Shown here: positions 28,752 to 45,825 of the stretch, piece after piece
Layout of the letters: each line of letters starts with the position of its first letter
Numbering within the stretch: position 1 is the first letter of the stretch
IMG/VR virus record: IMGVR_UViG_3300044681_000650
Span: 1-50,530 of that record
Reading direction: 5' to 3' (one strand)
DNA: 50,530 nt
Source of the DNA: a virus
Program-made: the position numbers and the translations under genes
The notes under the pieces: model-generated
The model's database searches: none
Told to the model about the DNA's origin: nothing
What the model saw: the letters and a program-made list of their open reading frames with translations, nothing else

Positions 28752-29865
28752 ACATCTTGACCTGATCCATCACCTTGCCAGCACGGGCCTGAAGATCAGC
28801 CCGGGCATCAGCCCACTCCAGCAGGCGGGCTGAGGCCGTGATGCCCTGCACCAGATCCCACACCGTCTCGCACTTGCCCTCCTCTGCTGTGGCGAAGCGG
28901 ACGGCATCCTTGATCTCCATCTTGGTGAAGCGGTGACCCCGCTTGGTCAGCCAGTTGTGGATCGTCCGCCAGTATTCCACGGGCGCACCGTCCTTGGTCT
29001 CGTGGGCGGGCAGCTGGCTGCTGGAAGCAGCCTGCACATGCTCGATCAGCGGCTGGTCACTGGCAGTGACGAACTGTTGCAGCCTGCCGATCGCCTCGGT
29101 GTCGAACCTGCTCGGCCCACCCGAGGTATGACGAATCATCAGCCGCTCCATGTCCTTCATCCCCATGATCAGCCCGTTGCTGCACACGCTGTTGAAGAGG
29201 AAGGTCGAGAGGCCGAAGGCTTTGCTGCCCACCTCCGAGTTGTAGACGATGAAGCCACGGTGCAACTGCGCCCTGCCATGGATGTCGATGCGCCTTGTCA
29301 TGTCCGCCATGAACATGAAGACGTTGCGGTCACTGGCGAAGAGGCCGCCGCTGCCCACAGGTGTGAACTGCCCACTCGTGTGGTCCATGATCCTGCGCAC
29401 AGCATCCACCACCTCGGCATCCCATATCCTGCCGTAGGTAGGGGAGGTCACAGCCTGCAACCTGCCATGCTCATCGCCAGTGTCCACTGTCATGAACTTG
29501 GCACCGAGGTCATCGCCTGCCAGCTTGGCAAGGCCATGGTTCAGGTTGTCCCTGACGAGTTGAGCGGGGAGATCCCGCAGGTAGTTGGCTGGTGCCCCGA
29601 CACGCTGCGCCATCTGGCCAAAGGCCCAGTGTGTTGGCCTGACAGGATCGATCGAGGAGTTGATGACGATGTCCTGATACGTGCCCTCGTCTCCCTCGAC
29701 ATCAATCACCTCGACACGGGTGCGGTTGATGTCGATGTCGATCGCACGGGAGGACATCCTGCGCTGATGCACCTCGGCATACATGCCGTCAAGGGACGAG
29801 AAGCTCTGGTCACGATGACGGTTGCGGAAGCCAGCACGGAAGTTGTTGATGTTGATAGCGGTCAT
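28750..29865 (-). CDS. DUF932 phage/plasmid-type protein
   Basis: 371 residues from ATG 29865 after AACAACAGAAAGG. Typical features of the DUF932 family are visible: a start-proximal polar segment, then HWAFGQMAQRVGAPANYLRDLP (about 80-101), AVTSPTYGRIWDAEVV (about 137-152), RGFIVYNSEVGSKAFGLSTFLFNSVCSNGLIMG (about 203-235). Members occur on many plasmids and phages, usually in early or accessory regions. The function is not settled. A dyad copy lies at 29889. A long open frame antisense to this gene is a base-composition shadow. Confidence 0.85.
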   Translation of the reverse strand: MTAININNFRAGFRNRHRDQSFSSLDGMYAEVHQRRMSSRAIDIDINRTRVEVIDVEGDEGTYQDIVINSSIDPVRPTHWAFGQMAQRVGAPANYLRDLPAQLVRDNLNHGLAKLAGDDLGAKFMTVDTGDEHGRLQAVTSPTYGRIWDAEVVDAVRRIMDHTSGQFTPVGSGGLFASDRNVFMFMADMTRRIDIHGRAQLHRGFIVYNSEVGSKAFGLSTFLFNSVCSNGLIMGMKDMERLMIRHTSGGPSRFDTEAIGRLQQFVTASDQPLIEHVQAASSSQLPAHETKDGAPVEYWRTIHNWLTKRGHRFTKMEIKDAVRFATAEEGKCETVWDLVQGITASARLLEWADARADLQARAGKVMDQVKM

Positions 29866-29888
29866 TGTTCTGCCTTTCTGTTGTTGTG

Positions 29889-29905
29889 AGTTCAGTTGTT
29901 GAACT
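29889..29905 (-). promoter_or_regulatory. Dyad repeat copy 2
   Basis: AGTTCAGTTGTTGAACT: arms AGTTC and GAACT intact. It stands 23 bp upstream of the DUF932 start, with the conserved AACAACAGAAAGG block between. Confidence 0.85.
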
Positions 29906-29937
29906 CGGTTTACTCTGGCGGGATTGCCAGACTTGGA

Positions 29938-29954
29938 GGCAGGCAGCGCCTGCC
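29938..29954. other. Intercistronic hairpin
   Basis: GGCAGGC-AGC-GCCTGCC, a compact 7-bp stem with a 3-base loop, in the gap after the gene at 29966-30172 and before the dyad. A further small stem (CTGGC with GCCAG) lies just beside it. Confidence 0.6.
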
Positions 29955-29965
29955 CCCAGTGTCTA

Positions 29966-30172
29966 TCAATCCTTCTTCAGTTGTCGCTTGAGCCCTGAGC
30001 CGATCAGGAATCCCTCAGTCCAAGCCTTGGCCTGACTGAGTGGCATCCAGATCGACATGCTCTTGCCCTTCCACATGAACCTGAGCTTGCTGGCCTGTTG
30101 TTCGATCTCGATCTTCATCCCGAGGATGTTGAACAGGCGGACAGTCTTCTTGATGTCTTGGAGGTCACCCAT
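29966..30172 (-). CDS. Small hypothetical protein
   Basis: 68 residues. The ATG overlaps the stop of the gene upstream (ATGA). Mixed alpha/beta with a helix-strand pattern (RLFNILGMKIEIEQQASKLRFMWKGKSMSIWMP) and a basic tail. No family is recognised. Co-translated with the 251-aa acidic protein before it, which it may bind. Confidence 0.65.
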   Translation of the reverse strand: MGDLQDIKKTVRLFNILGMKIEIEQQASKLRFMWKGKSMSIWMPLSQAKAWTEGFLIGSGLKRQLKKD

Positions 30173-30927
30173 CAGATCTGCTCCTTTCGGGCAATCTCAG
30201 CGAACTTGTTGGCCATGTTGCTGAGGAGGTCGCTGATCTCCTGAGCGCGGTAGGCGATGTCACGTGCCATGTCGTGGGTGTGGGACTCGATCTTGCTGAG
30301 CCTGTCTTGGACATCGACCAGCTTCCTGCCGAGTCCCTCGATCCCCTGCCACAGGGCATCCTCCTTCTCCAGCCTGACGTCCCGGCACACGTCCAGCACA
30401 TATTGCTTCAGCCCCGTGATGTCATCCGGCAGGATGGGCTTGTTGTCAGCCGGAGCATTCACTATCTGCTCGTCGATGATGTCGCGCAGCCACTTCTCAT
30501 TGTCGTGCTTGTCGAAGTAGTCGACGATGGCTTGGTCAACCATCGGGCTGATGACTTCATCGAGCATTGGCTCGAGCACCTCATGCCAGTTGGTGTTGCA
30601 GACCTCGTCCTTGATAGCCTCATCCAAACCGAGGATGTCACCGGCATTCACCTCGTGTGCTGAGAGGTGCTCTCGCACTGCCTCGTCGATGGCATCGGCC
30701 ATGCCCATGGCGTCCACATCCATCTCCGACATGGCATCTGAGATATGCTCCCTCAGGTCCATGCCATCGAGCGAGGCTTCGACCTGATCCTCGACCTGTG
30801 CTTTGAGATGGACATCGGTCAGAGCAGTGGTGATGCGCTTCTCGATGTCGGCCTTGATTGTGGCCATGAAGTCCTCATTGCCGAGGATTCCGGATACGAT
30901 CGCCGATGTGATGATGTTGTCGTTCAT
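30172..30927 (-). CDS. Large acidic helical protein
   Basis: 251 residues from ATG 30927, after AACAGAAAGGTAGATAGC (an upstream GTG-type start gives 20 more residues but lacks this site). Rich in Asp and Glu and almost fully helical, with repeated D-A/M-D motifs (HISDAMSEMDVDAMGMADAIDEAVREHL). A coiled-coil-like C-terminus (QDRLSKIESHTHDMARDIAYRAQEISDLL). The look is that of a DNA-mimic or a scaffold-like binder of a basic host protein, a common theme of anti-defence factors. This is speculative. Confidence 0.65.
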   Translation of the reverse strand: MNDNIITSAIVSGILGNEDFMATIKADIEKRITTALTDVHLKAQVEDQVEASLDGMDLREHISDAMSEMDVDAMGMADAIDEAVREHLSAHEVNAGDILGLDEAIKDEVCNTNWHEVLEPMLDEVISPMVDQAIVDYFDKHDNEKWLRDIIDEQIVNAPADNKPILPDDITGLKQYVLDVCRDVRLEKEDALWQGIEGLGRKLVDVQDRLSKIESHTHDMARDIAYRAQEISDLLSNMANKFAEIARKEQI

Positions 30928-30947
30928 GCTATCTACCTTTCTGTTGT

Positions 30948-30964
30948 AGTTCAGTTTCTGAACT
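30948..30964 (-). promoter_or_regulatory. Dyad repeat copy 3
   Basis: AGTTCAGTTTCTGAACT. It stands 20 bp upstream of the ATG at 30927 with AACAGAAAGG between. Confidence 0.85.
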
Positions 30965-30990
30965 GGTTGCCTTGGCGTTATTGCCAAGCC

Positions 30991-31026
30991 TCACCATACC
31001 TTATCAGATATGGTGACGCTTGTCAA
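30991..31026 (-). promoter_or_regulatory. Candidate sigma-70-type promoter overlapped by an inverted repeat
   Basis: On the minus strand TTGACA (31026-31021), 17 bp, then TAAGGT (31003-30998). The -35 is perfect and the -10 is weak. A hyphenated palindrome TCACCATA-N10-TATGGTGA (30991-31016) spans the spacer and -10 box, where a repressor could block polymerase. It lies between the GP88-like gene and the acidic protein gene, about 65 bp upstream of the latter. Confidence 0.5.
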
Positions 31027-31045
31027 CACTTAAGATTACACAGCA

Positions 31046-31708
31046 TTACAGCTGGATTACAAATCCTGACGTGTCCTGCTTGGCCTTGCCCTTCGGGGTC
31101 AGGCCGACGATGACTGGGGTAGGGTCTTGGAACCTGACGTCTGAGTCGTCGCCGTTGATAACCCTGTAACCCTTGTATTTCTTGGGCACTGTCGAGAACA
31201 CGGCGGCCACGTTCTTCCCCGCAGCCAGCACCTTCTCGCATGTTTCCCAGTTCGACTCTGACCTACTGAACGTGAGCCAGTAGTTGGGCAGGCGATTGGC
31301 GAGGACACGGGCTGCACTCTTGGTGTAGTCGTAGAACTGCAACTCCGGAAAGTGCTTGATGACTCTGCGCCAGCTGATGTCCGAGGTTCCGTTGAGCCTG
31401 ACCGCAGGCTTGAATCCCTTGCGCTCAGTAGAGATCCGGAACCTCGACAGCTCGACGTAGAGCTGATCCATGAATCCATCACGGTCATCGTGATAGAACT
31501 TGGTCCGATTGATACGTGCCTGCTGCACGTTGTTGAAGCTCCCGCGTCCTGCCGTATACAGGCAGGCTGTGCGGCATCCATCCGATGCCCACGGGCAGAC
31601 GTTCAATCCCGCAATATCTGCCGGTGCGAGATATAAGATGGCCGTCTTGACGCCCAGCTTCTCACCCTTCACCGTCTTAACGTCATTCTCTACACTAAGT
31701 AGTGTCAT
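31046..31708 (-). CDS. GP88-like phage protein
   Basis: 220 residues from ATG 31708, chosen for CAGAAAGGAG just before it. The pattern LAPADIAGLNVCPWASDGCRTACLYTAGRGSFNNVQQARI at about 27-66 is the signature stretch of the phage protein family first named from mycobacteriophage gp88: close Cys residues (CP.AS.GC...CLY), then AGRG. The C-terminal half has WRRVIKHFPELQFYDYTKS and further conserved-looking strands. The Cys group suggests a metal or Fe-S site. The function of the family is unknown to me. A dyad copy lies at 31722. Confidence 0.75.
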   Translation of the reverse strand: MTLLSVENDVKTVKGEKLGVKTAILYLAPADIAGLNVCPWASDGCRTACLYTAGRGSFNNVQQARINRTKFYHDDRDGFMDQLYVELSRFRISTERKGFKPAVRLNGTSDISWRRVIKHFPELQFYDYTKSAARVLANRLPNYWLTFSRSESNWETCEKVLAAGKNVAAVFSTVPKKYKGYRVINGDDSDVRFQDPTPVIVGLTPKGKAKQDTSGFVIQL

Positions 31709-31721
31709 GCTGCTCCTTTCT

Positions 31722-31738
31722 GGTTCGGTTACTGAACT
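31722..31738 (-). promoter_or_regulatory. Dyad repeat copy 4
   Basis: GGTTCGGTTACTGAACT; only the first base differs from consensus. It touches the stop codon of the upstream gene and stands 13 bp before the ATG at 31708. Confidence 0.8.
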
Positions 31739-32045
31739 ACACGCAATGGCATCCGCAGCCATGCGGACACATCCATAGATTGTATCCTCCATTGTCGCAG
31801 GTTCGGGCTTCACTTGCCCAATCCCAGATCATGTCTGCCACGACATCCTTGCCGTCACGCATGATCTGTCTGGCTTCTCGTCGAGCCATGACGTATCGGT
31901 TATGCGTCCAGCCCATGTCTTCCTCGTCTCGGAAGTGCATCAGCCATTCTGCGTAGATGTCTGCCAGTTTACGCACCCCCATCTTGTGGAGGTCGGCATA
32001 CGCCTTGTCGTATGCCTCCTGACTATGACTCCATTGCCATGCCAT
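31737..32045 (-). CDS. Small Trp- and Cys-rich protein
   Basis: 102 residues from ATG 32045 after AACAGAAAGGAAC. Helical and polar, with six Trp residues and a Cys/His tail (CDNGGYNLWMCPHGCGCHC), which looks metal-binding. No family is recognised. Confidence 0.65.
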   Translation of the reverse strand: MAWQWSHSQEAYDKAYADLHKMGVRKLADIYAEWLMHFRDEEDMGWTHNRYVMARREARQIMRDGKDVVADMIWDWASEARTCDNGGYNLWMCPHGCGCHCV

Positions 32046-32062
32046 ACTGTTCCTTTCTGTTG

Positions 32063-32079
32063 AGTTCGGTTACTGAACT
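32063..32079 (-). promoter_or_regulatory. Dyad repeat copy 5
   Basis: AGTTCGGTTACTGAACT, the closest copy to the consensus. It stands 17 bp upstream of the ATG at 32045 and partly covers the end of the upstream gene's stop region. Confidence 0.85.
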
Positions 32080-32282
32080 GTCACTTCGACGTAGTCGTCG
32101 CCAATAGTGACGGGCAGTTTGCCCGTCAAAGCCTTGATGATAGTGGGTCGTGTCCACTGTGGGTGAGGCCATGACTGCATGACCTTGACGATCTGCTCTT
32201 TCGAGCTGGGATACATGGCCACTGCCCACCGCCAAAGGCCGGGGGCGTGAATCATGGGGGCGGAGGTGAGTCTGATCTTCAT
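32070..32282 (-). CDS. Small hypothetical protein
   Basis: 70 residues; ATG overlaps the stop of the upstream gene (ATGA). Sequence MKIRLTSAPMIHAPGLWRWA then a helical middle and a beta end (LTGKLPVTIGDDYVEVTVQ). No recognised domain. Its coupling to the 59-residue gene upstream suggests a pair of partner proteins. Confidence 0.6.
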   Translation of the reverse strand: MKIRLTSAPMIHAPGLWRWAVAMYPSSKEQIVKVMQSWPHPQWTRPTIIKALTGKLPVTIGDDYVEVTVQ

Positions 32283-32458
32283 AGTTCCTCCTGCACTTTG
32301 GATGCTGCGTTGTCCGCAACGGACAAGGCGTTGCGAAGTTTCACTGCCCTGATCTCAAGGTCAGGGTCCATGTCGTGATCTGTATCCAGCATTAGCTGGA
32401 GCTTTGCCCACACCTCATACATGTGGTCCCTCAGGCTTCGGATCTCTTCTACTTTCAT
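32279..32458 (-). CDS. Small helical hypothetical protein
   Basis: 59 residues from ATG 32458 after AAACGAAAGGACAGC. Two helices with heptad-like spacing (EEIRSLRDHMYEVWAKLQLML and LEIRAVKLRNALSVADNAASKVQEEL). Probably a helical hairpin that dimerises or binds a partner. Function unknown. Confidence 0.6.
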   Translation of the reverse strand: MKVEEIRSLRDHMYEVWAKLQLMLDTDHDMDPDLEIRAVKLRNALSVADNAASKVQEEL

Positions 32459-32474
32459 GCTGTCCTTTCGTTTG

Positions 32475-32491
32475 AGTTCGGTAACCGAACT
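32475..32491 (-). promoter_or_regulatory. Dyad repeat copy 6 (perfect palindrome)
   Basis: AGTTCGGTAACCGAACT: eight-base arms around a single central base, the best dyad of the set. It stands 16 bp upstream of the ATG at 32458. Confidence 0.9.
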
Positions 32492-32512
32492 CTCTGACCT
32501 ATGGCCAGACTG

Positions 32513-32539
32513 CACACCTCACCTGTCACATGAGGTGTG
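32513..32539. other. Intercistronic hairpin
   Basis: CACACCTCA pairs perfectly with TGAGGTGTG across nine bases. It lies between two genes, upstream of dyad copy 6. Confidence 0.65.
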
Positions 32540-32547
32540 ATGTCTGA

Positions 32548-32913
32548 TCACTGCCGCTCCCGCAGGATCTCTCTTTCCGCCGCCGCAATGGCGGACAGGA
32601 CCGTGTCCCTCTCCCGCTGGGCGTGCTCACGCTCCGCCTGAGCATCCATTCGTGCGGCATCTGCTGCCGCGAGCTCGACCTTGGCGCGGCGCAAGATGCG
32701 CTCGGCCTCGGCCTCCGCCGCCGAGATTATCCACTTGGCCTGTTCTTCGGCCGCGCTGATGCTGTCTCGGATGGTCTGCATCGGGATGTGATCGGACTTC
32801 AGATCCCGCTCAACCTGCGGACAGATCTGGAGCAGCCACTCTCCTATGTAGCTGCCCGTCCCCAACTCGGACGCGAATTTATAGAGTGCGTCCAACTCTT
32901 CTGCTTTGGTCAT
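32548..32913 (-). CDS. Coiled-coil hypothetical protein
   Basis: 121 residues from ATG 32913 after AACAGAAAGGTCAGC. Residues 45-121 are a long Ala/Glu/Arg helix (SAAEEQAKWIISAAEAEAERILRRAKVELAAADAARMDA), almost certainly a coiled coil. It resembles the stalk-like helices of ATP-synthase b or phage assembly factors by composition only. Function unknown. Confidence 0.65.
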   Translation of the reverse strand: MTKAEELDALYKFASELGTGSYIGEWLLQICPQVERDLKSDHIPMQTIRDSISAAEEQAKWIISAAEAEAERILRRAKVELAAADAARMDAQAEREHAQRERDTVLSAIAAAEREILRERQ

Positions 32914-32932
32914 GCTGACCTTTCTGTTCTCC

Positions 32933-32949
32933 AGTTCAGTTATCGAACT
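32933..32949 (-). promoter_or_regulatory. Dyad repeat copy 7
   Basis: AGTTCAGTTATCGAACT, extended to CAGTTC-N7-GAACTG at 32932-32950. It stands 19 bp upstream of the ATG at 32913. Confidence 0.85.
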
Positions 32950-32973
32950 GGACCCTGCCGACAGGCAGACCAC

Positions 32974-33001
32974 ACCCCTCGACCTGATTGGGGAGGGGTG
33001 G
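32974..33001. other. Hairpin between two dyad copies
   Basis: CACCCCTC pairs with GAGGGGTG over a 12-base loop, in the 65-bp gap between dyad copies 7 and 8. Confidence 0.6.
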
Positions 33002-33015
33002 CGTCTAACGGTGGG

Positions 33016-33032
33016 AGTTCGGTTTCCGAACT
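33016..33032 (-). promoter_or_regulatory. Dyad repeat copy 8
   Basis: AGTTCGGTTTCCGAACT; seven-base arms. It overlaps the stop codon of the gene at 33031-33399 and lies 67 bp before copy 7, so this gap has two copies. Confidence 0.85.
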
Positions 33033-33399
33033 AGTCTTGCTTGCCGCTCAGCTTCCAAGCTGCCAAGAGAACACTACGGGCTTTTTCCCCATACTCCTCC
33101 ACCGCGAATTGGAGGAGCTCCTCCGCGAGACCAGCCAGCTCCGCATCGGGCTGGCGACCTCCTTTCTTGTCTTTGGCCTCCGTAGGCCAGACCTCGTTCA
33201 AGTAAGAGAACATAGCCGTGCGTCCAAAGACGCCAGACTCCATCCACCCTTTTAGGACGCCCAACGCGTCCTGCCGACTCACCCCGTTGTCTCGAAGCTC
33301 GATCAGAATCGAGCAAACCTTGACGCGTGCCTTTTCGGCAGACTTAACCGCCGATAGTGCCTTGGCCCACAACCCGTTCACCTTGTCGTTCGTTGTCAT
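33031..33399 (-). CDS. Hypothetical protein, first gene of the minus-strand accessory operon
   Basis: 122 residues from ATG 33399 after CAACGGAAAGGATAG. Helical and basic/acidic mixed (KALSAVKSAEKARVKVCSILIELRDNGVSRQDALGVLKGWMESGVFGRTAMFSYLNEVWP), a pattern like small DNA-binding or adaptor proteins; FGRTAMFSYLNEVWP could be a recognition-helix region. Being the first gene, it is the most strongly expressed candidate of this operon. No family is recognised. Confidence 0.6.
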   Translation of the reverse strand: MTTNDKVNGLWAKALSAVKSAEKARVKVCSILIELRDNGVSRQDALGVLKGWMESGVFGRTAMFSYLNEVWPTEAKDKKGGRQPDAELAGLAEELLQFAVEEYGEKARSVLLAAWKLSGKQD

Positions 33400-36516: not shown

Positions 36517-37743
36517 TTACCTCCTGTTCCACGGTGCATCAGGATCGTCAGCAAAGGATACCGACTTCTTGGCCGCAGCCTTCGTCGCACCCCTGCCCCC
36601 ACCATCAGGATCATTGGACCGGAGCTTCTTCAGCTCAGCTTCCAACTCCTCAACCTTGTCCTCATACAGCCTGAGCTTCCGCACTGTGGCTGGGAAGGCA
36701 GCCGCGTATCTGCGCATACCGGCCATGACCGTCAAGCGCCTGTCAGAGGTCATTGGGGAATCAGGGCTGATCGCTTCGTCAAAGTCCTTCAGTCCCTTCT
36801 CAAGCAGTCTGTTGTGGTCATCATCCCCGTCGATCCTCCCAAACAGGTCAGGGTAACGGGTGACGATCTTCTCGTCTGCCTTGGTCCAGACCTGCTGGTT
36901 GAGGCGTTGCTGCTCAGCCTGCTCAGCCAGACGCTTCTTGGAGACCTCAGCAGAGTTCTTCTCGGCGTCTGCCAGAGCCTTCTTGCGTTGCTCGTTGAGG
37001 GTCCGGATCTGGGTGCGCATCGCAAGAATCTGCGGTGCAGCATCCCCGAACAGCATGTTCGCATACCTGCTGGCTTCCTTCAGGGGCATCTCAATGAGGC
37101 TCAGGAAGTCCTGCTTCTTGGCCATACGGGTGCCCTCAGCAGTCTCGATCTCGACACCCTCGATCTCGGACGTGGCCATGTCGATCAGGCTCTTGATCGG
37201 CTGGATATACTTCTCCTGATATTCGTCAGACGTCTCGTAGTCAGAGACGATCTGCTTGGCCTGATACTCCTTGATGCGTGCCTTCAGGGATGCGTTCTCA
37301 TCTGCCAAGGCATTGGTTACCTCGCCTGACTCAGTCTTCTGCTTCAGCTCTTCGAGCTGCTTCTCAAGGCTGGAGTAGCTCTCGCGCAGCTTGTCATAGG
37401 CATCACGCAGGGGCTTGGACCTCTTGTAGGCAGAGGACTCAAGGAATGCTTCGTCAGATTCCTCTGCCGATTCAGCAGCCTCAGGAGCAGCTTCCTGCGC
37501 AAGCTCTTCCTTGGCCTCCTCCTTCGGCTTGTCCTTGGCTTCGAACTTGCCCTTCTCATCCCGCTTGCGGATGCCTGCAATCTCATCAAGCTCGGCAAAC
37601 GGATCAGGCGGGGCAGACTCAGCCTCAGCGCTGGGGGTTTCCTTGGGTTCCGCAGCCGGGGTCGCCTTTACCGGCGGCTCGGCCACTGCAACATTGGACT
37701 CGGAGTGCTCTGCACCACCGAGATCTGGCATTTCATTTGGCAT
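36517..37743 (-). CDS. Scaffolding protein
   Basis: 408 residues. N-terminal 130 residues are Ala/Glu/Pro-rich and disordered-looking; then long helices from about 115 (YDKLRESYSSLEKQLEELKQKTE) and more coiled-coil to about 280; then a C-terminal helical and basic part (RYAAAFPATVRKLRLYEDKVEELEAELKKL) and a basic end. Highly charged, helical, no Cys, directly after the portal and in the head operon: the features of podovirus scaffolds, which guide capsid assembly and leave before maturation. Its partner capsid gene lies 6.5 kb away on the other strand. Confidence 0.8.
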   Translation of the reverse strand: MPNEMPDLGGAEHSESNVAVAEPPVKATPAAEPKETPSAEAESAPPDPFAELDEIAGIRKRDEKGKFEAKDKPKEEAKEELAQEAAPEAAESAEESDEAFLESSAYKRSKPLRDAYDKLRESYSSLEKQLEELKQKTESGEVTNALADENASLKARIKEYQAKQIVSDYETSDEYQEKYIQPIKSLIDMATSEIEGVEIETAEGTRMAKKQDFLSLIEMPLKEASRYANMLFGDAAPQILAMRTQIRTLNEQRKKALADAEKNSAEVSKKRLAEQAEQQRLNQQVWTKADEKIVTRYPDLFGRIDGDDDHNRLLEKGLKDFDEAISPDSPMTSDRRLTVMAGMRRYAAAFPATVRKLRLYEDKVEELEAELKKLRSNDPDGGGRGATKAAAKKSVSFADDPDAPWNRR

Positions 37744-37747
37744 GGTT

Positions 37748-37999
37748 TTAGTACTTTAGTTTCTTCGGATCAGGTAGCTGCTGCTCCGTAGCTTCAGACA
37801 GGTTGGTCAGCATGACGGCAAACTCCTTGGCACCCTGCACCCGCAGGGAATATCCGGGATCTGCACCATTGGCTGACATGGACAACTGGGCAAGTGCGGC
37901 GTGAACCACACTCGTCCACATGTTCGAGGCAGTTATATCTGCCCATCGCTTGGCGTGCTCACCGTTGGCGAATACGTGTTTGGGGGTTGGTAGCTTCAT
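37748..37999 (-). CDS. Small head-region protein
   Basis: 83 residues; its ATG overlaps the portal stop (ATGA), so it is made together with the portal. Helical with a basic N-terminus (MKLPTPKHVFANGEHAKRWADIT) and a KK-Y tail. It may help portal or scaffold assembly. No family recognised. Confidence 0.65.
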   Translation of the reverse strand: MKLPTPKHVFANGEHAKRWADITASNMWTSVVHAALAQLSMSANGADPGYSLRVQGAKEFAVMLTNLSEATEQQLPDPKKLKY

Positions 38000-40254
38000 A
38001 CGAGACCGTCCAACGCTGCATTGATTCTGGCTTCAATGGCTGCATTGGAAATCGACTGATCATGTTCCTGTTGCTTGATGGCCATGTTCTGGGCGTGCTC
38101 CTGAGCCTTGCGCTGCTGTTCAGCCTCAAACGCCTGCTGCTTGAACTGGGCGCTCTGGTTCTGGGCGATGACCTTGCCCCGTGCCTTGACCTGCTCCTTG
38201 ACCATTGTGTTCTGAATCTCGGCCATGGCCTTGGGATCACCCTGCGCCTGCTCACTCTTCATCTTCTCAGCCAGACGCTGGCTGTATGCCCGGATGATGT
38301 TGTTGGCTTGGGCAAGCTGACTGTTGAAGCTCTTAACCAGACCGCCCTGCCCCTTGTCACCCTGCAAGATCTCCAAGTTCTGCGCGATGTGCGAGGACAG
38401 GTTGACCATGCCGCGCAGCTCGTCGGCGTCCTTCGGAACCGCTCCCTGCTGCTCAATCTGCTGGATCTTCACGTTCAATGTCTGGAGTTGGGCAGCAACA
38501 TACTCGTTGCGGTTGACCTCCTGCGGTATGCCGACAGGCAAACCAGAGAGCAGGACGCCTGCATTCTGCTGACCCTCGATGACCGAGTTGGACGGGAACT
38601 GCTCCTCTTCCATCGGAACCATGGAGTTGGCCAAGGAAGGATCGTCGGTGTTGGCCTCAACATACAGGTGCAGGGCTCTCCTCTGGCTGTTGGGATCGAG
38701 CAGGGGACGGATGGACATGAGCAATTCGGCCTGAGCCTGCTCAACCATCTTGTTACCGCCGCCCATAACCCGAACCGGATCTACTTCCCACCGCTCAAAA
38801 TCCAGCCACTTCTTGTCTACGCCCTGCTTGAGCACTCTCTCCCTGAATAGTTTGACCTCAGGACAGGTCGTAACCGGCTTACTGAACCTGCGGGCAATCT
38901 CTCGATACTGGAAGACCGAGTCGTCATAGGCAGATCCAAGGATGGCTGACACCATCATCTGGAGCTGGCTCATCTCAGAGGACACCTGACGGGCTGACTT
39001 GGCCCGCTCTTCTCCCGGCGAAGCCTGACCACGGTATGACGCAGCAGCCTCACCCATGAGCTGCCGGTTCTGGAGCAGGCCCATGTTGATGAAGTTCATG
39101 TCCGGCTGCCAGCGCTCATCCCGTCCCACCACAGAGACTCCTTCGGGAATAATCCCAAGGTGATGCAGGTCGATGCGTTGAATCCTGTCCCTGTCTGTCG
39201 GATCAGAGACACGGAAATACCACATGAGGTTTTCAAAGATGGAGTCGTTGAGCTTGCACCGCAGTCGGTTTTGAAGCTGCACAACGGAATACAAAAGGAA
39301 TCCGAGGGATCGAATTGAATGGAAACGGAACGGCGCTTGGTTGGCGACATTCCCCCAGAAGGTGTGGAAGATCTGTGAGTGGTCCTCGGCATATGGGGTC
39401 TTGGACTTGAAGATGAACTCATTCTCCATGGTCTCGACGTTGGAGTCGGGGACCATCAGGCGCAGCCAATGACACTTGTCTTCGGACTCAAGGTCTCGGG
39501 TATACAGCGTCCACGTGCGGATAACAGGGATTGCGTCCGACTCCCAATAGCCCGAGTTCTCCTTGATCTCCTCGGTCATGAGTTCCGGGTTCTGGTAATA
39601 GTTCTCCTCGCGGTCACGGGTATCACCGCTGGCAACAGATGCCATCAGTGTGCTGAGGATCTTGTTGACCATCTTCATGTTCCAGCCGTCACCGCTTCGG
39701 GTGATCCGCCAGAACTCATGGGGCGTGTATTCCCGATACACCGCAAAGTATCCGAGGTTTGACAGGTCAAGGTATGTCTTGTCAGGGATCAGGATGTCGT
39801 TGACCCCGTAAGGCACTGGCTTCCAACTATCAATATTCGGCCATACGGCAGGTCCGTATCCGTGTAATCCGACATTGGCGAACTGTGATTTGAGGGAGAA
39901 TCCATATTCACGGCTCGCCTTCATGATCTTGTTCATCTCCTTGGTGATGATCTTTCCGGCCTTCATCCGCTCCTGATGCTCGCTGAAGCCGTCAATCGCT
40001 ACCGTGCAGAAATTGCCGGGTTTCATGAACGCATTGCGGTATTGGTTCCGCGCATCGTGCATGATCATCGCACCTTCAAGGAAGTTGACGTTGGTCTCGA
40101 TGTTGTTCTCCTCTACCTCCTCATCTGAATAGGGAGGTTCCCCGTCAAAGATTTCAGTAACCAGAGAACGGTTTTGCCTGCGAAGGTCATCGGCATCCAG
40201 CATGTGCTGGATTACTTCCATTGCCTTGGAGGCGTCTGTGTAGATGTCGCTCAT
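37996..40254 (-). CDS. Portal protein
   Basis: 752 residues, the size of podovirus portals. Opens with an acidic helical segment (SKAMEVIQHMLDADDLRRQNRSLVTEIFDGEPPYSDEEVEENNIETNVNF), as in P22-type portals. A central alpha/beta part contains many Trp and Tyr; the C-terminal 150 residues are Gln/Ala-rich helix (EQAQGDPKAMAEIQNTMVKEQVKARGKV), matching the barrel helices of long portals. It starts on the stop of the upstream gene (TAATG). It forms the ring through which DNA is packed and leaves. Order TerL - small proteins - portal - scaffold supports the call. Confidence 0.85.
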   Translation of the reverse strand: MSDIYTDASKAMEVIQHMLDADDLRRQNRSLVTEIFDGEPPYSDEEVEENNIETNVNFLEGAMIMHDARNQYRNAFMKPGNFCTVAIDGFSEHQERMKAGKIITKEMNKIMKASREYGFSLKSQFANVGLHGYGPAVWPNIDSWKPVPYGVNDILIPDKTYLDLSNLGYFAVYREYTPHEFWRITRSGDGWNMKMVNKILSTLMASVASGDTRDREENYYQNPELMTEEIKENSGYWESDAIPVIRTWTLYTRDLESEDKCHWLRLMVPDSNVETMENEFIFKSKTPYAEDHSQIFHTFWGNVANQAPFRFHSIRSLGFLLYSVVQLQNRLRCKLNDSIFENLMWYFRVSDPTDRDRIQRIDLHHLGIIPEGVSVVGRDERWQPDMNFINMGLLQNRQLMGEAAASYRGQASPGEERAKSARQVSSEMSQLQMMVSAILGSAYDDSVFQYREIARRFSKPVTTCPEVKLFRERVLKQGVDKKWLDFERWEVDPVRVMGGGNKMVEQAQAELLMSIRPLLDPNSQRRALHLYVEANTDDPSLANSMVPMEEEQFPSNSVIEGQQNAGVLLSGLPVGIPQEVNRNEYVAAQLQTLNVKIQQIEQQGAVPKDADELRGMVNLSSHIAQNLEILQGDKGQGGLVKSFNSQLAQANNIIRAYSQRLAEKMKSEQAQGDPKAMAEIQNTMVKEQVKARGKVIAQNQSAQFKQQAFEAEQQRKAQEHAQNMAIKQQEHDQSISNAAIEARINAALDGLV

Positions 40255-41036: not shown

Positions 41037-42833
41037 TTAGCTATATATCAGTCTCTTGTTTTTGTGAAGTCCCTGCTTTTTCTCCATGAGTTGGAGGTAG
41101 AAAAGGTCTGCCTCTTCCCGGTCCAGATCGCTGTAAGTGGCTGTCTTGGTGATCTCAAAGCCGTGCCTGCGTGCTCCTTCGGCGGCCAAGACCAGTGCGT
41201 CAAACAAGTCAGGGCTCTTGCCTGCACGCTTCTTCATCTCCGCCTTGGCCTCGACGTCGATCTTCCCGCCCTTGTTCATGAACCACTCTCGCAGTGATCC
41301 TTCTTCTACCAGCTCATCTGTGATCTGCCTAAACTGTTTGGCTTCAATGACATGGCGTATGAAGAACCACAGCTCAGACACAAACTTGCCGTAATGCTTG
41401 TGGCTTTCGACTGGAATGACATCGCTCACAGGTCTGTCTGAGGGCTTCCCTCCGAACTCAACAGGCACCACATTGGCCGACCATTCCCGAGCAAAGGCAG
41501 ACATCAGGGCACCATGACCGGTGGAGTCAACGTAGAGCCTGTCTGCGGATATACCGCGTGCCATGCACATGTTCTTGACGGCTCTGGCTACCTGTTCCTG
41601 CGGGGGGATTGGTGCCTTTGCTGAGATCGGGACGATGATCGGCTTCTCATCCAGCGCCATGATCCACACCCCGTTCAGGTCTCTGCCGATGCGAAGGATT
41701 ACAAGTGCGGTGCGATCACCAAACGAGCTGTAGGACGCATCAAGCCCGGCAATCAAGGTCGTCTCCCTCCCCCTCCAGACAGCCTTGTCTCTGGCCATGT
41801 TGTTATCACAAAGCATAGCGTCGATAACCCGGCGGCTTGCGCCTGTTGCTGGCATGATTCCCAAGTCCATCATGCCAAACTGGAGGGAATCCCTGCCGTA
41901 ATACTCAAGGTCAGTGCGAATCTCTTCCCGTCCGATCAGGAACGGATAGGGCTCCTTCTCTCCGTCAGCCACGTCAAAGTTCGGACTGTCTGTGCCGGGC
42001 AGCTGGATGGCGCATCCATTCCTCCACCGGGTCTTCCACACCTTGGTCTTCTCTCCCTGATCAATCCCCGGCCATCCACCAAGATCCGGATGAGGTTCGC
42101 ATACCAGCCCGAGCGCATCAGTCGGGTCTTTTGGGTTACCTAGCCCTATGAGCCTGAAGCCTTTATTCTTGTTGAGGTTCGAGATTGCATCGACAAGAGC
42201 CTTGCCCATGAAGCTCAGCTCATCGGCAACAAGGAGCATGTGCTTGTTCTTGATGCCCACAAACTTGCCAAGTCCGACATACTGACCACCGACCACAGTT
42301 GGAACGCCAATGATCCCGTCACGGTTATCCCTGCCAGCACCATCGTCTGAGGTGACAATCTGCTGCTTGGATTCGACGAGGTGACCGGGGCAGTCTTCCC
42401 AGACCTCTTTTGCCATCTGCCAATACTTCTTGATCTCACCCCAGACACGAAGCTCTAGGGAACGACTATCAGTAGATGAGACCAGCCCTGTGAACCCGGT
42501 AGGGAATGCAAAGTAGAAGCATAACGTAAGTAATGCTGCCTCATGGGTCTTTCCGGTAGAGGCTGCACCAAGAATGCCCGTGAACCTGTGGGAGCATACG
42601 TTCTCGACCACAAGCCTGTTCCAGCGATGCCACTGTTTGTCAGGCCACAAGAGCTTCTGCATTTCCATGACATGGTATGCAAGCCCACGCCCGTAGGTGT
42701 TTTTGCCGATAGTGATGGTTCCGCCGTGTCGAATGAACTGGCGTTCAATCCAGACATGGTCATCAGAGGGGAATACGAGCCCATACTTTTTCGTCTCCTT
42801 GCGTGAGCTGGTTTCTTCTGTTAGGCCATACAT
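41037..42833 (-). CDS. Terminase large subunit (TerL)
   Basis: 598 residues from ATG 42833. ATPase: Walker A GAASTGKT at 89-96, Walker B MLLVADEL at 199-206. Nuclease of RNase H fold: LIAGLDASYSSFGDRTAL, then RLYVDSTGHGALM, then SPDLFDALVLAAEGARR, giving the three acidic residues. It cuts and pumps DNA into the head. The start chosen leaves only 4 bp to the divergent gene at 42838; a longer upstream frame exists but would overlap that gene by over 100 bp. No clear Shine-Dalgarno sequence precedes this start. Confidence 0.92.
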   Translation of the reverse strand: MYGLTEETSSRKETKKYGLVFPSDDHVWIERQFIRHGGTITIGKNTYGRGLAYHVMEMQKLLWPDKQWHRWNRLVVENVCSHRFTGILGAASTGKTHEAALLTLCFYFAFPTGFTGLVSSTDSRSLELRVWGEIKKYWQMAKEVWEDCPGHLVESKQQIVTSDDGAGRDNRDGIIGVPTVVGGQYVGLGKFVGIKNKHMLLVADELSFMGKALVDAISNLNKNKGFRLIGLGNPKDPTDALGLVCEPHPDLGGWPGIDQGEKTKVWKTRWRNGCAIQLPGTDSPNFDVADGEKEPYPFLIGREEIRTDLEYYGRDSLQFGMMDLGIMPATGASRRVIDAMLCDNNMARDKAVWRGRETTLIAGLDASYSSFGDRTALVILRIGRDLNGVWIMALDEKPIIVPISAKAPIPPQEQVARAVKNMCMARGISADRLYVDSTGHGALMSAFAREWSANVVPVEFGGKPSDRPVSDVIPVESHKHYGKFVSELWFFIRHVIEAKQFRQITDELVEEGSLREWFMNKGGKIDVEAKAEMKKRAGKSPDLFDALVLAAEGARRHGFEITKTATYSDLDREEADLFYLQLMEKKQGLHKNKRLIYS

Positions 42834-42837
42834 CGCT

Positions 42838-43305
42838 ATGGCTACCAATAATGACTTAAGTTTAGTTGTGCCAGTGTATTCTACTGAGATGGCTGGCAGT
42901 GTGCGTGTCTGGTTGAACCAGATTATCAAGCGGGCAAAATCAATAAATGCCACCTCGATCACGTGGGAGTTTTACGAGGGAACGCAGTCTGCCTGCCGTG
43001 AGATCTTGGGGCCGATGATGGTTCCGGGTCTTAAGTTCTACGAGGTCATCCGCACGTCCGAGGCCGGAACTGCCTTCTTTGTGCCCCCGTATCCTCCTGA
43101 TCGCGTTCCTGAGAAGAGGGAGGTCAAGGTCTACCCGACAACCCCTAAGGCTTCTGAGAGGGTTGAATACACCCCTGAGCCAGCCCAAGCCCCAATTCCG
43201 GCACCCAAGAAAGGCAAGGGTGTTCAGGTCGATCCCCAGCAGCCAGTGCCTACCGAGGAGAACAATCTGTTCGCTGAGGGCAAGGTAACCAAGATTAAGG
43301 GTTGA
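42838..43305 (+). CDS. Hypothetical protein divergent from TerL
   Basis: 155 residues from ATG 42838. First 85 residues mixed alpha/beta (SVRVWLNQIIKRAKSINATSITWEFYEGTQSACREIL), then a Pro/Lys/Glu-rich linker (PPYPPDRVPEKREVKVYPTTPKASERVEYTPEPAQAP) and a polar tail. The start lies 4 bp from the TerL start on the opposite strand, so its ribosome site is in TerL coding sequence and is weak (TTAGG). It is followed by a terminator. Function unknown. Confidence 0.65.
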   Translation: MATNNDLSLVVPVYSTEMAGSVRVWLNQIIKRAKSINATSITWEFYEGTQSACREILGPMMVPGLKFYEVIRTSEAGTAFFVPPYPPDRVPEKREVKVYPTTPKASERVEYTPEPAQAPIPAPKKGKGVQVDPQQPVPTEENNLFAEGKVTKIKG

Positions 43306-43378
43306 CCTGTTGATGGTCCGGGAATAGGTTCTGGCCAGTCAGTTCTGACGTTTACTGGCTACCTTTCTGTTGTTAACC

Positions 43379-43408
43379 CCCGCTCGGGTAAAACCGGGCG
43401 GGATTTTT
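43379..43408 (+). terminator. Intrinsic terminator after 42838-43305
   Basis: CCCGCTCGG pairs with CCGGGCGGG (one G-U pair) around a 6-base loop, then ATTTTTATTT. A further 6-bp stem GCCAGT/ACTGGC stands at 43334-43359. The bases before it, CTACCTTTCTGTTGTT, match (as reverse complement) the start-proximal block of the minus-strand accessory operon, here without a gene. Confidence 0.85.
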
Positions 43409-43427
43409 ATTTGTCAGCAAAAGATCT

Positions 43428-43529
43428 ATGTGGAACTATATCCACGGCCATCCGGACTACTGGACCCGGTTCGCCCTGAACACAACACTCGGGCCTGCGT
43501 GTGCAGTGTCCCGAGAACAAAAGAGCTAA
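43428..43529 (+). CDS. 33-residue peptide frame between two terminators
   Basis: ATG 43428 opens a frame MWNYIHGHPDYWTRFALN to a TAA at 43527-43529; the next terminator hairpin begins on the last two bases of that stop. Rich in Trp, Tyr and His, with AAAAGAT as a weak ribosome site. Its fit between terminators suggests a small transcript with its own promoter. It may also be chance. Confidence 0.4.
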   Translation: MWNYIHGHPDYWTRFALNTTLGPACAVSREQKS

Positions 43530-43557
43530 CCTCCCCCTTGATCGGGGGAGGTTTTTT
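43528..43557 (+). terminator. Strong intrinsic terminator
   Basis: AACCTCCCCC-TTGAT-CGGGGGAGGTT then TTTTTG: a perfect 10-bp stem with T tract. It separates the 33-residue frame from the capsid leader. Confidence 0.9.
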
Positions 43558-43659
43558 GTTGCACGCAGACAAAGTTTCGGTAGCCTCTCCTCGTTGCCGG
43601 GAGTAATCCGGTGAACGGCTGGAGTCAACCCCAGCGACAAAGACCTGCGTTGCCTTTAC

Positions 43660-43742
43660 CCGTATTTGATGTTGCACCGCAGGTTTTTCCTTTACAGGGG
43701 GTTCACGCCTGCGTTACCTCTCGAAAAGAACATCAAATACGG
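43660..43742 (+). repeat. 14-bp perfect inverted repeat with 55-bp spacer
   Basis: CCGTATTTGATGTT (43660-43673) and AACATCAAATACGG (43729-43742). The left arm lies inside the loop of another stem (43643-43649 with 43678-43684, followed by TTTTT), so the two pairings compete: a terminator/antiterminator-like switch is possible. Confidence 0.85.
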
Positions 43743-44068
43743 CTGTGATCAAGGTTGACTCGGAAGGTCACAGATGCCGAGAGAGGCCCAAACCTGAAAG
43801 ATGGAGGGCTAAAGGCAGTAAAGAATCTCACAGGAACGCTCAGTCTCACCGGACTGTAACCCGCTGCCGAATCTTCGGATTCAGGATCTTGATGGCATAG
43901 CTGACAGGGCAACCCCAGCTGACTGGAAGTCACCAGTAACCATCTTGTTCGACACTTCACACGACTAACCTATACGGATCGTGGTATGTGTTATCCTCCC
44001 TTGCCTTGTGCAGGGGGGGGTAATTCTCTCCTTCTCCGATCTTCCTACCGGATTGAGGTATGAACAGG

Positions 44069-44112
44069 TCTATGCATATTTCTATAGACATTTGTGTATA
44101 GGAGTGCATAGA
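44069..44112. repeat. Nested palindrome upstream of the capsid gene
   Basis: TCTATGCA (44069-44076) mirrors TGCATAGA (44105-44112), and inside it CTATA (44082-44086) mirrors TATAG (44097-44101). AT-rich, about 180 bp before the capsid start. Operator or RNA hairpin; TAGACA with CATAGA 16 bp on could be a promoter inside it. Confidence 0.75.
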
Positions 44113-44289
44113 TTGTTCACAGGTGACCCACTTAGCCAGACTCACCTACTGGCAGCAGAGCACTAATCGGCGTGCCCTCTGAACGCCACTGCGACCAAGG
44201 TCGGTCTCGCACCCGACGAACGAGAAGCTACGTGACGCAATGTCATGTGAGTTGGTCGCGTGGCACAAACAATCAGAGAAAGAAAATAT

Positions 44290-45825
44290 ATGGCATCCAT
44301 TAGTTGTAAGCAGTTTTCGGACTATTTGATCCGCCGTGCGGAGCACTTCGATTCGGACATCATCAAGGACATTACCCCTACCCAAGGCTGGATTGGTCAC
44401 GTTTCTACGGGGCCTTTTCCTGCTGGTGAGGGTGTTACCCGTCAATTTGACAAGTTTCATCGGGTTCAGCCCGACATGTCTGCTGCGTGGTCTGATGTGA
44501 CTTCTACGGGTTGTGTTGGCACTCCCTGTGACAAGACCGAGACTGAGATTGGTTTCGGTTACACTCAGGAAGAGTACAGCCTTCAGGAGAAGAGCTACAA
44601 GACGCAGATGTTCTGCTTTGACCTGATCATGTCTGCTGATCGGGCGAAGGAGCAGTTCGGTCACCTGATCGAGATCCTCCGTGATGCTTCCTCTACGATC
44701 ATCTCTGATCGTATGAAGACCGAGGCGTTTCGCATTGCTGGCAACAAGGTTCTCACGGGCCTGACTGGCATCGGTGTGAACATCCCGTTCACCTATACCA
44801 GCACTGGCAACCTGATCACGGTCACCCCGAATGCCTTGCCGGACTCGATCCTGACGATCGACATCCTGCAACGCTGGGTGCAGCCGTTGATCTTCGAGGG
44901 TTACACCGGGGCTGCTGGCTTGCCGAACTCGATGTTCGAGCTGGTCACTGACTTTGAAACCGCGTGGAACCTGCGTGAAGGCAACAGTTCCCTGACCAAC
45001 TCCTACCGTTTCGCCGACTTCGCCTCCGGTGGCGATCTCTACAAGTATGGGATTACCGATGCGATCGGCAACTTCGGTATCCGTATCGACGCTGCCCCGA
45101 TGCGTTTCTTGGAGACTGGTGGTGTTCTGCACCGCGTGTTCCCCTACAAGAACCAAGCTGCCTCTGGCGGCTACGGTGGTGCCGGTATCCAAGGCGTGGT
45201 CAATCAGGACTACATTGATGCCCCCTACCAGATCGACTTCATCCATCACCGCATGGCCATGAAGTCGATGACGCGCTCGACTGAGGTCATCAACTCGATG
45301 ATGCCCTTCGCTCAGCGTGACTTTGGCGGCAAATGGCAGTTCGTCATGGACAACCTTGGTGCTGATGCCAATGGCTGCGTCATCGAGAACAAGCGCCGTA
45401 ACAAGGGCATGTTCATCGCTGACTACAGCATGGCGACCAAGCCCGAGCGTCCTGAGTGGGAAGTTGCGATCCTCAGCAAGCGCCAGCGCAGCTGCGCTGC
45501 CGTGACCAGTGTCTGCACGGAGTTCACTCCTGCGACCTACACTGCTCAGGATTACAGCTCCTCGAACGAGGCTTGCGAAAACATTGTGATCGTGACCAAG
45601 GGTGCCGGTGCTTACCCGATCACGATTGATGCCTCCTCGATCACCTGCAACGGATACAACGTGGCCCACGCCGCCTCTGGTTCCCTTGCGAATCGCGCTG
45701 CTGTGCTGAGCTTCCTCAACACTGAGCTTTCTGAGCTTGGTACTTGGGTGACTGCTGATGCTTCTGATGTCGCCCTTGAAGGCGCTGTCTGCACTGCGGT
45801 TACGATTCCCGCGTTCGAGGCGTAA
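44290..45825 (+). CDS. Major capsid protein
   Basis: 511 residues from ATG 44290, after AGAGAAAGAAAAT; a GTG frame start at 44260 is less likely. Soluble, no long disordered or repeat region, with a helical N-terminus (ISCKQFSDYLIRRAEHFDSDIIKDI), a central alpha/beta body, and a Cys-containing C-terminal part (residues about 410-511) that looks like an added surface domain. Codon use is strongly biased to a few preferred codons, as for highly expressed genes, unlike neighbouring fibre genes. Strong terminator after it. Identified as capsid from size, expression signs, isolated transcription unit and lack of any other candidate; homology to a named capsid family could not be checked by eye. 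A 507-codon antisense frame is a shadow of this codon bias. Confidence 0.75.
   Translation: MASISCKQFSDYLIRRAEHFDSDIIKDITPTQGWIGHVSTGPFPAGEGVTRQFDKFHRVQPDMSAAWSDVTSTGCVGTPCDKTETEIGFGYTQEEYSLQEKSYKTQMFCFDLIMSADRAKEQFGHLIEILRDASSTIISDRMKTEAFRIAGNKVLTGLTGIGVNIPFTYTSTGNLITVTPNALPDSILTIDILQRWVQPLIFEGYTGAAGLPNSMFELVTDFETAWNLREGNSSLTNSYRFADFASGGDLYKYGITDAIGNFGIRIDAAPMRFLETGGVLHRVFPYKNQAASGGYGGAGIQGVVNQDYIDAPYQIDFIHHRMAMKSMTRSTEVINSMMPFAQRDFGGKWQFVMDNLGADANGCVIENKRRNKGMFIADYSMATKPERPEWEVAILSKRQRSCAAVTSVCTEFTPATYTAQDYSSSNEACENIVIVTKGAGAYPITIDASSITCNGYNVAHAASGSLANRAAVLSFLNTELSELGTWVTADASDVALEGAVCTAVTIPAFEA

Follow-up and report, generated by a model that had tools for sequence, protein, structure and literature searches.

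Predicted competing RNA pairings in the probable leader of a capsid gene from an uncultivated phage

Leader RNAs of phages and the capsid locus

The classic leader pseudoknot of a phage is that of T4 gene 32, leaders of the phage T7 type work as processing or stability devices, and the GOLLD and ROOL RNAs are often found near tRNA islands. For DNA phages, leader RNAs that control capsid synthesis are, to our knowledge, poorly documented. The T4 pseudoknot lies 67 nt upstream of the gene 32 start codon (PMC3014915), and GOLLD and ROOL are long structured phage RNAs with pseudoknots, of unknown function (PMC12286853). The window analysed here is a viral contig of 50.5 kb, taken at its full length. 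Its capsid leader may resemble the gene 32 leaders of T4, T2 and RB69 in having a pseudoknot: pseudoknot-type (ABAB) pairing potential is above chance, and 72 nt separate the end of the last such module from the start codon downstream. The T4 element is an autogenous translational operator of a gene for a single-stranded-DNA-binding protein, whereas the window gene is structural; the window has several modules and an RNA helix over the ribosome-binding site (RBS) that competes with them; and the RBS region, unstructured (A+U-rich) and covered by gp32 in T4, lies in a predicted 18-bp helix. Like translational riboswitches and leaders of the r-protein type, the window could adopt either of two incompatible folds, one of them hiding the RBS, as far as pairing potential alone can tell. 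Unlike in those systems, the relatives' leaders have no conserved sequence core, so that no ligand pocket is visible; the conserved aptamer sequence of a riboswitch proper was not found, and the leaders share no alignable sequence. By analogy, the window leader would work most like a T4 gene 32 leader pseudoknot to which a translational switch that hides the RBS has been added.

GOLLD and ROOL are comparable as long, structured, pseudoknotted RNAs in phage genomes. They differ in that transcription of the window region runs straight on into the capsid gene and the contig is without tRNAs. Neither gave a covariance-model match, and no tRNA or tmRNA gene was found in the contig. A search of the whole window with the Rfam 15 covariance models gave 0 matches at the gathering threshold and only chance-level, below-threshold matches at E up to 10, and 12 relatives' loci also gave 0 matches; the sequence-only reading of this DNA had likewise recognised no RNA family. 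Group I and II introns, considered by eye, were unsupported by Rfam.

The gene downstream had been called a capsid gene, and the protein model agrees. The protein has no sequence match in Pfam, PHROG or PDB, but an AlphaFold model built from 40 relatives (mean pLDDT 66, moderately confident) has the phage N4 capsid as its top Foldseek match (E 3e-9, probability 1.00), with many other HK97-type capsids besides, so that the predicted assignment is consistent. Capsid homology led to 73 uncultivated viral loci in IMG/VR, the best 54% identical, and to none among named phages. One relative, a 7.4-kb contig, sits in a Pedosphaera (Verrucomicrobiota) MAG, which is a weak hint of the host. Three minus-strand stretches of the window (36517-37743, 37996-40254 and 41037-42962) hold homologues of genes from the relatives' capsid loci. 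The first two lie in relatives on the capsid strand, upstream of the capsid gene, and the head-gene module is thus rearranged in the window.

The unusual non-coding space remarked on earlier is real, and larger than the 730 bp first given: codon scoring found no coding frame in 43306-44289, between the end of a 202-aa ORF (43305) and the capsid ATG (44290), a true gap of 984 nt. Two intrinsic terminators (Table 1), the first closing the upstream gene's transcript, make the earlier choice of 43558 as the region's start reasonable. Between them lies a 125-nt non-coding piece (43403-43527; z -2.1, both strands), possibly a small RNA or the relic of an ancestral leader. At the end of the first terminator, 18 nt (43397-43414) are identical to L073:4731-4748, although the phages are distant. 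In L073 the terminator directly abuts the capsid promoter TTGAC, while the window has TCAGC at the -35 position; L008 has the same layout as L073, terminator then promoter.

The gap far exceeds the relatives' leaders (their -35 to ATG: -134 to -329), and its upstream ~400-500 nt (43554 to ~43950-44050) have no homologue in any collection searched. DNA similarity searches of phages, plasmids, 50 related contigs and 388 genomes of the phylum of the Pedosphaera MAG returned short chance matches only. In four scans, viral contigs were searched for exact 16-19-mer patterns of the region; these found nothing, or unrelated contigs sharing that word only, and a terminase-based search found no closer relatives.

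Table 1. Features of the gap and the capsid gene in the window (strand in the third column)
Feature	Position	Strand	Details
Intrinsic terminator	43379-43402	+	9-bp stem, U-run; closes the upstream gene's transcript
Second intrinsic terminator	43528-43553	+	10-bp stem, U-run on +; scored on - too
Upstream structured, unconserved part	43554-43948	+	predicted stems; without homologue in searches
Perfect inverted repeat, 14 bp	43660-43673/43729-43742		within upstream part
UUCG hairpin	43869-43882	+	within upstream part
Three-way junction	43891-43944	+	within upstream part
Best capsid promoter candidate	43949-43976	+	TCGACA-16-TATACG; profile built from 49 relatives
Long imperfect hairpin	44061-44119	+	~23 pairs (59 nt); dG -27.5, z -6.7, 0/200 shuffles
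ABAB module a	44121-44153	+	AGGUGA 44121-44126 : UCACCU 44142-44147; GCCAG 44135-44139 : CUGGC 44149-44153
ABAB module b	44156-44187	+	CAGAG 44156-44160 : CUCUG 44177-44181; GGCGU 44169-44173 : ACGCC 44183-44187
ABAB module c	44190-44217	+	UGCGA 44190-44194 : UCGCA 44207-44211; GUCGG 44200-44204 : CCGAC 44213-44217
RBS-covering helix, 5' strand	44177-44197	+	CUCUGA-AC-GCCAC-U-GCGACCA; pair probabilities 0.92-0.99
RBS-covering helix, 3' strand	44253-44278	+	UGGUCGC-GUGGC-...-UCAGAG; 18 pairs: 44177-44182 x 44273-44278, 44185-44189 x 44260-44264, 44191-44197 x 44253-44259
Multi-helix element	44185-44264	+	predicted fold
Hairpin in closed domain	44230-44248	+	ACGUGAC/GUCAUGU; pair probability 0.96-0.99; fits both folds
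Shine-Dalgarno-like AGAGAAAG	44275-44282	+	sequence; partly inside helix, its start covered
Major capsid protein gene	44290-45825	+	HK97-type fold; AlphaFold model, Foldseek

Competing pairings before the capsid start codon

Folding of 43554-44289 (736 nt) on the + strand is stronger than in shuffles (z -4.5 with 60 shuffles to -5.5 with 20), but a capsid-coding segment of the same length nearly equals it (z -4.0), so that total folding energy is a weak discriminator and was rejected as proof. Most of this excess lies in the final ~235 nt (44055-44289, z -4.9), and this folding, the RBS-covering helix and the tandem ABAB modules are the strong signals. Within the upstream portion, 43554-44060 reaches z -3.0 on the + strand and -1.1 on the - strand, and 43761-44060 is modestly structured (z -2.9), the + strand being clearly stronger. 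The UUCG hairpin, multi-helix element and competing pairings described from the sequence alone are all present in the predictions.

The three modules stand in tandem and share one form: a first strand S1, a loop, a second strand S2, a short loop, the complement of S1, one base, and the complement of S2. Their chain score is 33.2, against 5.7 (sd 5.6) in shuffles, and 0 of 1000 shuffles reach it; 7 of 2014 genome windows match it, a count that includes overlapping windows at the leader itself. For tandem ABAB pairing, several 200-nt windows within 28801-33130, on both strands, have scores equal to that of the leader. Classical H-type pseudoknots do not usually have connecting loops this short (L3 of 0-1 nt). 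The modules are safely described as ABAB pairing potential, each being either a pseudoknot or two alternative hairpins.

The RBS-covering helix has a duplex energy of -28.9 kcal/mol; the corresponding value for shuffles is -16.6 (sd 2.8), and not one of 300 shuffles equals the real helix. The Shine-Dalgarno-like sequence that it partly covers has a duplex of -5.7 kcal/mol with the 16S 3' end. Since, as far as pairing potential goes, modules b and c need the 5' strand of this helix too, the two folds are mutually exclusive.

Leaders of the relatives and a coevolving start-codon helix

A TTGACA-type site (exact in 41) lies in 49 relatives at a median of 225 nt before the ATG; it is followed by a TA-rich -10, and the spacer is 17-18 nt in 46 of the 49. 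The best candidate in the region before the window's capsid gene scores 8.2 against this profile, where the median of the relatives is 17.2, and ranks 26 of 50490 + strand positions, a weak sequence match. In four relatives (L021, L026, L063 and L072) a short membrane-type frame seems to lie between promoter and capsid gene, replacing the usual leader.

The relatives' leaders have no alignable sequence with the window and mostly none with each other, which precludes column-wise covariation and a usable covariance model; MAFFT and RNAalifold applied to leader subgroups misaligned the 3' arms and gave no consensus fold. A swap test was therefore used for 50 non-redundant leaders, in which each upstream arm is paired with its own start region and with that of every other phage. 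For -95..-55 against -30..+3, arms pair better with their own start region than with swapped ones (z -4.4, p 5e-5; leaving the window out, z -4.3). On a map of 30-nt blocks only -104..-74 against -32..+3 departs from zero (z -4.6), a near-identical block giving z -5.1 (0/20000), and with a wider block the window has the strongest own-pair excess among the 50. Capsid-coding segments and the next two genes were null; the third downstream gene gave z -3.4, from only 9 loci with uncertain starts. The test is conservative, because swapped relatives pair too, through kinship among the leaders.

The arms that pair adjoin or include the AUG, as in UGGCUUCAAAAAC/GUUUUUGAAGUUA (L036), CGCUUCUA..CUGCA/UGCAG..UAGAAGCG (L054), UCAUAAAAUCG/CGAUUUUAUG (L083) and GGCGUUAGAG/CUCUAACGCU (L017). 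At the level of sequence this amounts to compensatory change without an alignment: the sequences differ and the complementarity stays. Testing the start region for one ungapped helix gave no overall significance (median p 0.45). The A-U richness and the bulges of the helices make that test insensitive, and the duplex-energy and swap tests are its sensitive versions. In the swap tests (z between -4.3 and -5.1, controls null) a conserved RBS-hiding helix with compensatory changes was found, and the compensatory changes that had been asked of relatives appear in this alignment-free form rather than in alignment columns.

ABAB pairings are also enriched in the leaders of the 49 relatives (KS 3.6e-10), an enrichment absent from three coding blocks and one upstream block used as controls. 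A pseudoknot of the form GAAG:CUUC with a covarying second stem (CCGGC/GCCGG, CCCGAC/GTCGGG, CGGCG/CGCCG or CCGAG/CTCGG) adjoins the closing helix in 13 of 50 leaders, a descriptive count, both this form and the ABAB descriptor having been picked after viewing the sequences; shuffles gave 0.8 (maximum 3) and coding controls 0-2. The CUUC strand lies mostly 79-93 nt before the ATG and, since the pseudoknot abuts the closing helix, is common to both folds in the relatives, as the shared strand is in the window.

A possible translational switch and its alternatives

The 3' part of the region, from ~43980 or 44055 to 44289, must be read into the capsid mRNA, because no terminator lies between the region and the capsid gene. 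That it is the 5' leader of that mRNA and a translational switch we consider moderately probable. From the pairings we infer a pseudoknot geometry, a folding order, a sign of regulation and a trigger, as follows. In an open fold the three tandem modules (44121-44217) would be formed and the RBS free. In a closed fold the pairing of 44177-44197 with 44253-44278 would remove the strands of modules b and c and bury AGAGAAAG beside the capsid AUG. Transcription makes the module strands ahead of the closing helix's 3' strand, so the open fold would likely come first and the closed fold later. The closing helix, predicted to be the more stable, would then shut the RBS unless ribosomes or a head protein held the fold open, and the balance might be set by ribosome loading, by the capsid or another head protein, or by the age of the mRNA. 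By prediction the nested fold is clearly more stable than the pseudoknots, so that the open state may be a minor one.

The main rival to a switch is a device for mRNA processing or stability, in which the hairpin at 44061-44119 and the closing helix would be RNase III-like sites or 5' barriers giving a long-lived capsid mRNA without any regulated switch. The 59-nt hairpin (z -6.7) and the long closing helix do precede a gene expected to be highly expressed, and tandem pseudoknots could block 5'-3' decay. Such a device leaves unexplained why the start-codon region is the specific conserved partner of the helix on the block map, and why one strand enters two exclusive pairings, and we regard it as unlikely. 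A control leader, one of the two roles proposed from the sequence alone, is supported by the capsid fold of the downstream gene product and by the promoter, the structured leader and the coevolving helix in relatives; the other, an abundant phage noncoding RNA, found no support, there being no Rfam match, no sequence relative in the collections searched and no terminator before the capsid gene.

The 5' ~400-500 nt could nevertheless be a separate RNA; alternatively, the stretch from 43554 to ~43950-44050 may extend the leader or be left over from an insertion. A separate noncoding RNA resembling the large ornate RNAs, lying before the capsid leader by chance, would fit a gap much longer than the relatives' leaders, a + strand with a greater folding excess than the - strand has (z -3.0 against -1.1), and the long-range pairs with the 14-bp inverted repeat. 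It would, however, be an RNA that Rfam does not match even at E 10, without a relative anywhere searched, without a terminator at its 3' end and with only a moderate folding excess, and we find it quite doubtful. The additional DNA might otherwise be a decayed insertion, of a homing endonuclease or another mobile element, its structures accidental. Directly upstream of its capsid leader, at the position of the window's extra 400-500 nt, the nearest relative (L002) has a 194-aa ORF resembling an HNH endonuclease (L002:4233-4817, +); leader length varies across relatives, and the window's gene order is rearranged. Yet no coding remnant and no flanking target-site repeat was recognised, and an insertion would not explain the conserved 3' domain; it too is improbable.

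With the 3' part read as a leader that switches translation, RNA folding probably sets when the phage produces its capsid. Promoter, pseudoknot-type modules and start-covering helix persist in ~50 leaders that no longer align, and for that reason the architecture is invisible to covariance-model libraries; swap tests that set a phage's own arm against the arms of other phages could reveal more such leaders. Tentatively, and with less confidence than for the window itself, a whole clade of uncultivated tailed phages may place capsid synthesis under a contest between tandem pseudoknots and a helix that hides the start codon, in a fast-evolving leader that would probably sense head assembly or the timing of transcription, its function being kept by architecture, so that searches for RNA families would miss it.
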